Source: Clostridia bacterium (GTDB lineage: Bacteria > Bacillota > Clostridia > Oscillospirales > Acutalibacteraceae). From it: DNA of 64,000 nt. Shown in pieces: positions 16,797-57,053 of this stretch. Numbering within the stretch: the stretch's first letter is position 1; every line of letters begins with the position of its first letter. The position numbers and the translations under genes were made by a program. The DNA lies in NCBI GenBank assembly GCA_017560255.1, contig JAFYOI010000035.1:1-64000 (forward strand). Reading direction: 5' to 3'. A model generated the notes under the pieces. It searched no databases, was not told the origin of the DNA, and saw nothing but the letters and a program-made list of their open reading frames with translations.

Positions 16797-17057
16797 GTGA
16801 AAGGCTGTGAACAAGACAAGTAGCATAGGAATTCGTTTGAAGTGAGTGCGGGGCAGTGTAAACCGCGTAACAGAGCCTGTGTGAATAACACTTGGGAGCC
16901 GCAATCTGAACGGTGTAAACTCAGTAGGTGCGACGGGGGCTGACCGTTATATTAGCAGGCTTTTTGTGAAGCGCAGAGTGACCGGAAACGGTAAGATAGG
17001 TGGTACCACGGGTGCAGGCTCGTCCTATTGTCAGAGGGCGGAACTGTGCTTTTTTTA
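16797..17057 (+). ncRNA. T-box leader (tRNA-sensing riboswitch) of the asparagine operon
   Basis: The 3' part holds the T-box core AGGTGGTACCACGG at 16998-17011. Downstream is an alternative hairpin (CGTCCT at 17021-17026, AGGGCG at 17035-17040) and a T run at 17050-17056, which form the terminator. Upstream is a long structured stem I with an AGTA near its 5' side, like the S-turn of specifier loops. An AAC at 16909-16911 followed by G is a candidate Asn specifier, but I could not fold the stem to prove it. Uncharged tRNA would favour read-through into asnS. Confidence 0.9.
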
Positions 17058-53077: not shown

Positions 53078-53153
53078 GCTGGTGTAGCTCAGTTGGTAGA
53101 GCAGCTGATTTGTAATCAGCAGGTCGGGGGTTCGAGTCCGTCCACCAGCTCCA
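53078..53153 (+). tRNA. tRNA-Thr (TGT)
   Basis: A complete cloverleaf: acceptor GCTGGTG pairs with CACCAGC, discriminator T and an encoded CCA. The anticodon loop TTTGTAA gives TGT (Thr). The T-arm has GGGTTCGAGTCC. Confidence 0.97.
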
Positions 53154-53175: not shown

Positions 53176-53260
53176 GGGAGAATTCCCGAGTGGCCAAAGG
53201 GGGCAGACTGTAAATCTGTTGCGATTCGCTTCGGTGGTTCGAATCCACCTTCTCCCACCA
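53176..53260 (+). tRNA. tRNA-Tyr (GTA)
   Basis: Acceptor GGGAGAA pairs with TTCTCCC, discriminator A and an encoded CCA. The anticodon loop CTGTAAA gives GTA (Tyr). A long variable arm is present, as expected for a class II bacterial tRNA-Tyr. Confidence 0.97.
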
Positions 53261-53263
53261 AAA

Positions 53264-53294
53264 AACAGACTTGCTATTGCAAGTCTATTTTTTA
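53264..53294 (+). terminator. Terminator of the tRNA-Thr/Tyr operon
   Basis: AGACTTGC and GCAAGTCT form a stem (53267-53286) followed by ATTTTTTAT. Confidence 0.88.
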
Positions 53295-53393
53295 TCCATT
53301 GCGAAAGCAATGGCATATCATCAACGATAGCATCGCTATCGTTGTATCTCATCAGTCCGTCGGGACTGTATATCATCACGCATAGCGTGTATC
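53294..53393 (+). repeat. Palindrome array 1 (unlike palindromes with a conserved linker)
   Basis: Four different perfect or near-perfect palindromes: CATTGC-GAAA-GCAATG, AACGATAGC-ATC-GCTATCGTT, AGTCC-GTCG-GGACT and ACGC-ATA-GCGT. They are joined by ten-base linkers GCATATCATC, GTATCTCATC and GTATATCATC, ending with GTATC. The palindromes share no sequence; the linker is constant. It lies directly after the tRNA terminator. Confidence 0.9.
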
Positions 53394-53396
53394 AAA

Positions 53397-53426
53397 AAAC
53401 GGTGCAGTTAAACTGCACCGTTTAAT
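53397..53426 (-). terminator. Terminator of ddh
   Basis: AAACGGTGCAGTT and AACTGCACCGTTT stem with A and T runs. It serves the minus-strand gene and could also catch plus-strand read-through. Confidence 0.88.
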
Positions 53427-56033: not shown

Positions 56034-56037
56034 TAGA

Positions 56038-56075
56038 TAAAAATACCCCTCGTTTTGTAACGAGGGGTATTTTTG
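56038..56075 (+). terminator. Terminator of the CFI-box module
   Basis: AAATACCCCTCG and CGAGGGGTATTT form a 12-base-pair stem followed by a T run. Confidence 0.9.
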
Positions 56076-56082
56076 CGTTCGC

Positions 56083-56157
56083 AACCCTCACGGGTTCGAA
56101 TCCCATATCAAACTGAACAAAACAAAAAGAACCCATCTTGCGATGAGTTCTTTTTTG
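56083..56157 (+). other. Possible tRNA 3' remnant followed by a terminator
   Basis: CGGGTTCGAATCCC (56091-56104) has the exact form of a tRNA T-arm. About 20 bases later comes a terminator-like stem (AAAAGAACCCATC / GATGAGTTCTTTT, 56125-56156). The rest of a tRNA is missing and there is no CCA. It may be an attachment-site scar or a decayed tRNA gene. Confidence 0.45.
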
Positions 56158-56221
56158 TTGCGAAAGAGCAGTAAAAAGGTGCGTGAAATGCTAGGTTATT
56201 TGCCAGAAGTAGTATTTTTGT

Positions 56222-56782
56222 TCAATTAAAAAATTTAACATATTGTTTTCGTAAGTGAAACCAACCGAACAAATGTCGAAGTGCAATCGTTAATCCAACA
56301 AAACCAACGATGGCTAAAAACAGATGCCTAATGTCTAAAAGTGGATTCTTATTAACAACGCACGATAAGGTTATACCTGCAACAGCTATCGCTGTAAAAA
56401 GAAGTCCAATCAGAACATATTGCATTACCAAATGTCTTAAATAGATATTTCTGTAAAACGTTCTTTGCAGCAAATCTTCTGTTTTCGTTATACGATAAAC
56501 AGAGGTGGTTTTAAGCAGTTCAATAAAACTACCGCCTATTTCGGTGGCTTTGAGTTGCTTTTTTAATGCTTGCTCGGTTATTATCATTCCACTTTCCTTG
56601 ACAAAAGAACAAGTAAAGAAATATTTAACTTCCTTATTTTGTGACCGAATAAATCTAAATTTTCTGAATCCGGAGATTTTATCTAATCTCCACCCATCTT
56701 TCTCCAGTTGTTCCAGTTTGGACTCAATTTCTTCACATTTCCATATTGGAGAGAAGAAACGCATTGACATTGTCTCTTTCAA
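56222..56782 (-). CDS. DUF2812-type membrane protein
   Basis: About 186 residues. The N-terminal part (IESKLEQLEKDGWRLDKISGFRKFRF) is the DUF2812 signature. Two helices follow near the C-terminus, then a basic tail. Such proteins often pair with PadR regulators; none is next to it here. AAAGGAGG seven bases before a TTG at 56782 sets the start. The longer frame to 56908 runs into the palindrome array and is rejected. Confidence 0.75.
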   Translation of the reverse strand: MKETMSMRFFSPIWKCEEIESKLEQLEKDGWRLDKISGFRKFRFIRSQNKEVKYFFTCSFVKESGMIITEQALKKQLKATEIGGSFIELLKTTSVYRITKTEDLLQRTFYRNIYLRHLVMQYVLIGLLFTAIAVAGITLSCVVNKNPLLDIRHLFLAIVGFVGLTIALRHLFGWFHLRKQYVKFFN

Positions 56783-56831
56783 AATGCCACCTCCTTTGCA
56801 ACTGATTATATTACAAATTAACACACTTTTC

Positions 56832-56934
56832 AATGATGTATCGCTTGTGCGATATGATATACGGCTTACGCCGCATGATATACTTGTTTCGCAAGCATGA
56901 TATATCATCCGTTCCGACAGGGAACGGATATCAT
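56832..56934 (-). repeat. Palindrome array 2 (inverted relative to array 1)
   Basis: Different palindromes, ATCGC-TTGT-GCGAT, CGGC-TTAC-GCCG, CTTG-TTTCG-CAAG and CCGTTCC-GACAG-GGAACGG, are joined by the plus-strand linker ATGATATAC (GTATATCAT on the minus strand). The linker is the same as in array 1, in reverse. It lies downstream of the minus-strand tRNA-Gln and its terminator, so the order tRNA, terminator, array is kept in the same sense. Confidence 0.9.
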
Positions 56935-56940
56935 TGCAAA

Positions 56941-56976
56941 AAACCTCTTTTGTCAGGTAGACAAAAGAGGTTTTTT
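56941..56976 (-). terminator. Terminator of tRNA-Gln
   Basis: AACCTCTTTTGTC and GACAAAAGAGGTT form a 13-base-pair stem, with A and T runs on either side. Confidence 0.9.
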
Positions 56977-56979
56977 ATA

Positions 56980-57053
56980 TGGCAGCGGAATAGGGATTCG
57001 AACCCCAACAAACAGAGTCAGAGTCTGTCGTGCTACCGTTACACTATTCCGCT
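56980..57053 (-). tRNA. tRNA-Gln (CTG)
   Basis: Reading the minus strand, acceptor AGCGGAA pairs with TTCCGCT, with discriminator G and an encoded CCA. The anticodon stem ACAGA/TCTGT holds loop CTCTGAC with anticodon CTG (Gln). The T-arm has GGGTTCGAATCCC. Confidence 0.95.

Follow-up and report, generated by a model that had tools for sequence, protein, structure and literature searches.

Among the known systems closest to the element studied here are a noncoding RNA and the 23S rRNA elements that encode a particular protein family. Gut-1 RNA (RF01706), which is without a function in Rfam, has been classed as certainly RNA, with human-gut metagenomes as its only listed source (PMC2864571); its 77-nt model comprises a UGAAAU linker repeated between unlike hairpins, i.e. 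the linker plus three hairpins. The S23/IVP proteins (PF05635, a four-helix-bundle family), for which we found no assigned function, are encoded in intervening sequences (IVS) of 23S rRNA, and in Coxiella the IVS is excised by RNase III (PMC4990558). We have analysed a stretch of 64,000 nt (the window) from a Clostridia bacterium (GCA_017560255.1, contig JAFYOI010000035.1), in which unlike hairpins separated by a near-constant linker form an array (array 1) behind a tRNA-Tyr gene. A Gut-1-related folded element is carried by the dozen in gut Clostridia, at tRNA gene ends and in cassettes which often encode an IVP. Judging from its sequence, array 1 belongs to a longer dispersed element, of which it is the left half, the right half having been lost together with any cargo. 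We favour, with some reserve, the reading that this left half is what decay has spared of a gene cassette anchored at a tRNA; such a cassette would be mobile with a recombinase acting in trans, and its IVP would read the linkers of its own clade. The features of the locus are as follows:

53078-53153, tRNA-Thr, upstream of tRNA-Tyr
53176-53260, plus strand, tRNA-Tyr, the gene in front of array 1 (ARAGORN, Rfam tRNA)
53260-53293, plus strand, terminator hairpin between tRNA-Tyr and array 1 (from sequence and fold)
53294-53393, plus strand, array 1, read as the left half of a family-A element (linker GYATMTCATC)
53296-53313, plus strand, hairpin 1, CCATTGCGAAAGCAATGG
53314-53322, plus strand, linker 1, CATATCATC
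53323-53343, plus strand, hairpin 2, AACGATAGCATCGCTATCGTT
53344-53353, plus strand, linker 2, GTATCTCATC
53354-53367, plus strand, hairpin 3, AGTCCGTCGGGACT
53368-53377, plus strand, linker 3, GTATATCATC
53378-53388, plus strand, hairpin 4, ACGCATAGCGT
53389-53393, plus strand, linker 4, truncated to GTATC and merging into the A-run that belongs to the convergent gene's terminator (53394-53423)

Full copies of the element in the same genome carry GTATATCATC as left linkers and its reverse complement, GATGATATAC, as right linkers, and therefore the linkers of the two halves can pair, with the hairpins branching off. Over about 104 nt, array 1 shows 97-98% identity to the left half of one such copy, behind tRNA-Cys (G000:C53); the match starts at the terminator's T-run and extends to the A-run that follows GTATC, whereas the terminators proper differ. 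Since only the left half is matched, array 1 is a half element, squeezed in between the terminators of tRNA-Tyr and of the convergent gene. Loops are mostly c(TNC)g in left halves and c(GNA)g in right halves, as inversion predicts, and in the full copy the 5' arm of hairpin 1 can pair, in addition, with the element's middle. Single mismatches are more often G.T than A.C (22 versus 7, P = 0.008), which suggests that the tRNA-sense strand is the one that folds.

An earlier note on this DNA had described four unlike palindromes at these positions, separated by an almost constant ten-base linker. The palindromes were mapped as hairpins, and a 171-nt stretch that takes in both flanking terminators folds at -71.2 kcal/mol, against -30.3 ± 3.4 kcal/mol for its shuffles (z = -12). 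As to the linker, the three full copies are alike, though not identical, and the fourth is cut. Within the window, TGATGATATAC with up to two mismatches occurs 34 times, against 14.1 expected, a count reached by none of 100 shuffles. Genome-wide, where two exact linkers in tandem gave no match, GYATMTCATC has 46 matches, compared with 4 for the reversed-pattern control, and these cluster in arrays adjoining tRNA genes. The genome search had been proposed by the note itself, which took a random occurrence of the linker as evidence against its view; the linker, being enriched and clustered in arrays, is not random.

Across element families it is indeed the linker and not the palindrome that is constant, as claimed, since 279 of 337 hairpins are distinct. 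Independent selection on hairpins, also proposed in the note, is borne out by the perfect stems of at least 4 bp found in 178 of 267 between-linker segments, against 8.5% of shuffled ones, and these segments hold 108 distinct stem arms. Its suggestion of repeated linker insertion finds no support: the linker appears constant because only half of the element is visible in the window, the other half bearing the complementary linker, and because the linker class goes with the clade to which the adjacent IVP belongs. The same observations bear on an explanation by repetitive extragenic palindromes (REP) or bacterial interspersed mosaic elements (BIME), which would lie between transcription units and be spread by a REP-type (RAYT) transposase. 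The arrays resemble these in being extragenic, palindromic and dispersed, often between terminators. However, in REP/BIME the palindrome is conserved, whereas here the palindromes vary between constant linkers, an IVP lies nearby with a clade that the linker class tracks, and there is a tRNA anchor and a cargo; we consider this explanation very improbable.

The association with IVP genes was analysed in the same genome and in Clostridia relatives. Several full copies adjoin IVP genes, and full elements encode an S23/IVP protein, as the IVS does. In the relatives, an array of the window's type precedes IVP genes, and other IVP upstream regions hold arrays of unlike hairpins with different linkers; the idea that every IVP gene has the window's linker was thus wrong, each IVP clade having its own. 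Inverted-linker arrays, defined by a 6-mer that occurs three or more times and is then followed by three copies of its reverse complement, were found upstream of 60 of 119 IVP genes, whereas the shuffles gave none in 595 and the control windows 2 in 191. Also, IVP upstream windows fold with z ≤ -4 in 37 of 47 cases, against 3 of 90 controls. In a tree built from 60 IVPs, the linker class needs 12 changes, which is the minimum possible (shuffles need at least 32), whereas tRNA isotype needs 35, against a shuffle mean of 37, and so behaves like shuffled labels. Linker and IVP therefore travel together, while the tRNA is interchangeable. Other arrangements were seen as well. Some IVP families have ATTATTCA-type tandem repeats in front of the gene instead, the repeat middle copying the terminator arm (L068, L070, L072, L087, L099); in single loci the IVP gene has the same array on both flanks (L105), lies between copies of a long repeat behind a tmRNA gene (L098), or is accompanied by a downstream array present three times (L092).

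The relation to Gut-1 RNA emerges from the Rfam model (gathering score 50 bits), which aligns to the left halves of arrays at 51-67 bits (L088, L095, L107, L103, L110, L153) and also matches right halves on the opposite strand, both strands scoring because the element is inverted. Over 60 genomes, Gut-1 and IVP co-occur (Fisher P = 2e-5, Spearman 0.72), with 351 Gut-1 matches, some elements being counted twice as both halves can match, versus 72 IVPs; most arrays are therefore without an IVP, as in the window. Among 15 Gut-1 loci examined, seven have a tRNA or tmRNA gene close upstream, all co-oriented, and in six the distance is 19-35 bp. It is conceivable, although we think it unlikely, that the array works at the RNA level, as a noncoding RNA or as a 5' leader, for instance by controlling IVP and cargo or by binding the IVP, and copied along with the gene instead of being a mobility signal. 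The treatment of Gut-1 as a small RNA by Rfam and its published classification, the excess of G.T over A.C mismatches expected from RNA folding, and the location of the array directly upstream of a promoter-like site and IVP all agree with this. Conversely, the array comes after a terminator and before the promoter-like site, so that the sequence gives no clear sign of its transcription; Gut-1 matches both strands of the inverted element, and arrays outnumber IVPs about five to one, at unrelated tRNAs.

The location of array 1 behind tRNA-Tyr is not incidental, given that the element family is found at tRNA and tmRNA 3' ends. A co-oriented tRNA or tmRNA gene lies within 600 bp upstream in 57 of 97 IVP loci (20 of 41 and 37 of 56 in two sets), whereas anti-oriented upstream genes were found in 0 of 97 and downstream genes in 1 of 97, the background being 0.029 tRNA per kb. 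The anchoring tRNAs are of many isotypes, the terminator is common to cassettes even where no tRNA is near (L103), and in some families a protein gene, for example rlmD, takes the place of the tRNA. A further explanation, in which terminators or hairpins following tRNA genes were selected convergently and there is no common element, would fit the arrays abutting terminators; it is already refuted by the shared descent of the copies, which are near-identical at different tRNAs and have a linker class that equals the IVP clade, and we see hardly any room for it.

Two further observations concern the anchor. One IVP-array family lies at the 3' end of an rlmD/rumA-like gene (L074, L078, L105, L175), with a hairpin formed between gene end and element in L175 and L078. 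In eight loci (L088, L111, L116, L124, L132, L145, L151, L158), a second element type, whose end repeats the tRNA 3' end over 18 nt exactly or almost exactly, is placed between tRNA and cassette and displaces the IVP cassette from the tRNA; a stretch resembling it, GGGATTCGAACCCGTGAGGG, is present at 56036-56150 of the window, minus strand.

Many copies share one order, namely tRNA, terminator, array, promoter-like site, IVP and/or cargo gene, conserved right end and next cassette. Homology between elements at different tRNAs begins at the 3' end of the tRNA and extends as far as the IVP stop, where it often ceases, and the cargo reading frame overlaps the IVP stop as ATGA in 29 of 96 cases. 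Cargo includes GNAT proteins, methyltransferases, NUDIX proteins, nucleotidyltransferases and others. A right-end motif built from ten sites picked by eye, including one in the window, matched 13 IVP loci (4 used in building, 9 new), all on the IVP strand and with none in reversed controls, and most of the 13 are followed by a new hairpin; tandem cassettes occur in L118, L207, L208 and L210. The motif gave no match in a plasmid scan, and its matches in viral contigs had low scores or unrelated contexts and were taken as chance. At L181:1-1500, a tyrosine integrase (PF00589, 428 aa) ends just before a cassette right end and is a candidate mobiliser. The window itself holds a second cassette:

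56158-56979, minus strand, second cassette, at tRNA-Gln, with DUF2812-like cargo and no IVP
56980-57053, minus strand, tRNA-Gln, the anchor (ARAGORN, Rfam tRNA)
56938-56976, minus strand, terminator hairpin, with a TTTTGTCTACC/GACAAAA core common to other cassettes
56831-56936, minus strand, array 2, family-B type (linker ATGATAT/ATATCAT)
56805-56815, minus strand, promoter-like -10 region (TGTAATATAAT) between array 2 and cargo, read from sequence only
56222-56782, minus strand, cargo open reading frame, 186 aa, DUF2812-like (PF11193, 28.4 bits against a cut-off of 27.8)
56159-56193, minus strand, conserved right-end site TAGCATTTCACGCACCTTTTTACTGCTCTTTCGCA, then a new hairpin

The left half of array 2 is internally deleted, joining L2 to R1, and both window copies, array 1 and the tRNA-Gln cassette, are without an IVP. 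The Gut-1 match of array 2 is weak (29.5 bits, 56814-56886 on the plus strand) and below gathering score. Elsewhere in the window Rfam recognises a T-box leader at 16798-17030 (RF00230, 102 bits); matches to PyrR, microRNA and ribozyme families were below gathering score and taken as chance.

Tandem organisation also recalls integron gene cassettes, with which these elements have in common small cassettes in series, accessory genes such as GNAT and NUDIX, a folded single-strand structure and the conservation of structure over sequence. Should they be integron cassettes, the array or the right end would act as attC. Nevertheless, no match over cut-off to the integron integrase IntI (TIGR02249) was found in the own genome, no attI or attC was recognised, the anchor is a tRNA 3' end and not attI, and cassettes have their own promoter-like site. 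The CGCA/AMAAAA junction does not read as an attC core (RYYYAAC...GTTRRRY), and the right-end consensus, read by eye with no attC model run, is without GTTRRRY at the junction. An integron origin is consequently most doubtful.

The reading as a tRNA-anchored cassette can be put together as follows. As the sequences show, a full element starts directly after the tRNA or tmRNA 3' end with a terminator hairpin; its left half comprises about four short-linker copies with unlike hairpins, and its right half the reverse-complement linkers with further hairpins, followed by a promoter-like site and then by an IVP gene and/or a small cargo gene. Some copies close with a conserved right-end site, at which the next cassette can start, the predicted junctions being CCA/AMAAAA at the tRNA and CTCTTTCGCA/AMAAAA. 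On the tRNA-sense strand, left and right linkers may pair into a rod with paired side hairpins or, alternatively, the arm of hairpin 1 may pair with the element middle. The IVP from some copies would recognise the linker class of its own clade, IVP-less arrays, including both in the window, would be non-autonomous or decayed, and a recombinase (or reverse transcriptase) acting in trans would help the unit to move between tRNA 3' ends. What we infer from these patterns is mobility, recognition of the array by the IVP, and pairing into a rod.

Several results weigh against this reading. About half of the IVP genes, in 119 upstream regions, are without a clear inverted-linker array, and array 1 has no match in Rfam, the Gut-1 covariance model included. 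The right-end motif was found in just 13 of about 130 IVP loci, in a scan based on eye-chosen sites. A direct repeat of the tRNA 3' end right of the IVP was seen as one partial copy (L133) in 76 tRNA-linked loci, the other copies in these loci belonging to the upstream insert. The tyrosine integrase at a right end is a single case, and an integrase next to tRNA-Ser in the own genome was discarded as mobiliser, as no cassette end adjoins it. The genomes compared, which include no congeneric one, showed neither excision nor circles nor empty sites. Also, physical linkage alone could give the agreement between linker and IVP, and strand-biased mutation could equally yield the G.T excess.

More tentatively, we propose a new mobile cassette system of Clostridia, in which tRNA 3' ends would serve as docks, the inverted hairpin array, half of which corresponds to Gut-1, as the cis signal, and the IVP as a clade-specific trans factor for IVP-less cassettes. 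Tying an orphan RNA and an orphan protein to one tRNA-anchored cassette makes each testable, by way of linker binding by an IVP, folding of the array as RNA or DNA, and cassette movement. Given 351 Gut-1 matches across 60 genomes, gut Clostridia would possess in these cassettes an abundant but overlooked vehicle for small accessory genes, such as those for acetyltransferases, methyltransferases and NUDIX proteins. Open-access papers yielded no account of the system, although an earlier one may exist elsewhere; searches with the linker sequence matched only unrelated papers, and the phrase 'Gut-1 RNA' matched none in this literature, although PMC2864571 names Gut-1.

Finally, three known systems delimit the element. 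With the integrative and conjugative elements and islands found at tRNA 3' ends it shares the tRNA/tmRNA 3'-end site, the many isotypes and the cargo-swapping modules, but it is only about 1 kb long, has no integrase inside, and no right-hand copy of the tRNA 3' end was found. Like the 23S rRNA IVS with its S23/IVP reading frame, it is a structured element tied to a stable-RNA gene and to the same protein family (PF05635, solved relative 2rld); unlike the IVS, the arrays are not inside 23S rRNA, lie behind tRNA, tmRNA or protein genes, and comprise a palindrome array and cargo, and nothing in them points to excision by RNase III as in Coxiella. As for Gut-1, Rfam describes one half only, as an orphan small RNA, whereas the element studied here is inverted, with Gut-1 making up one of its halves, and has a tRNA anchor, an IVP and cargo.
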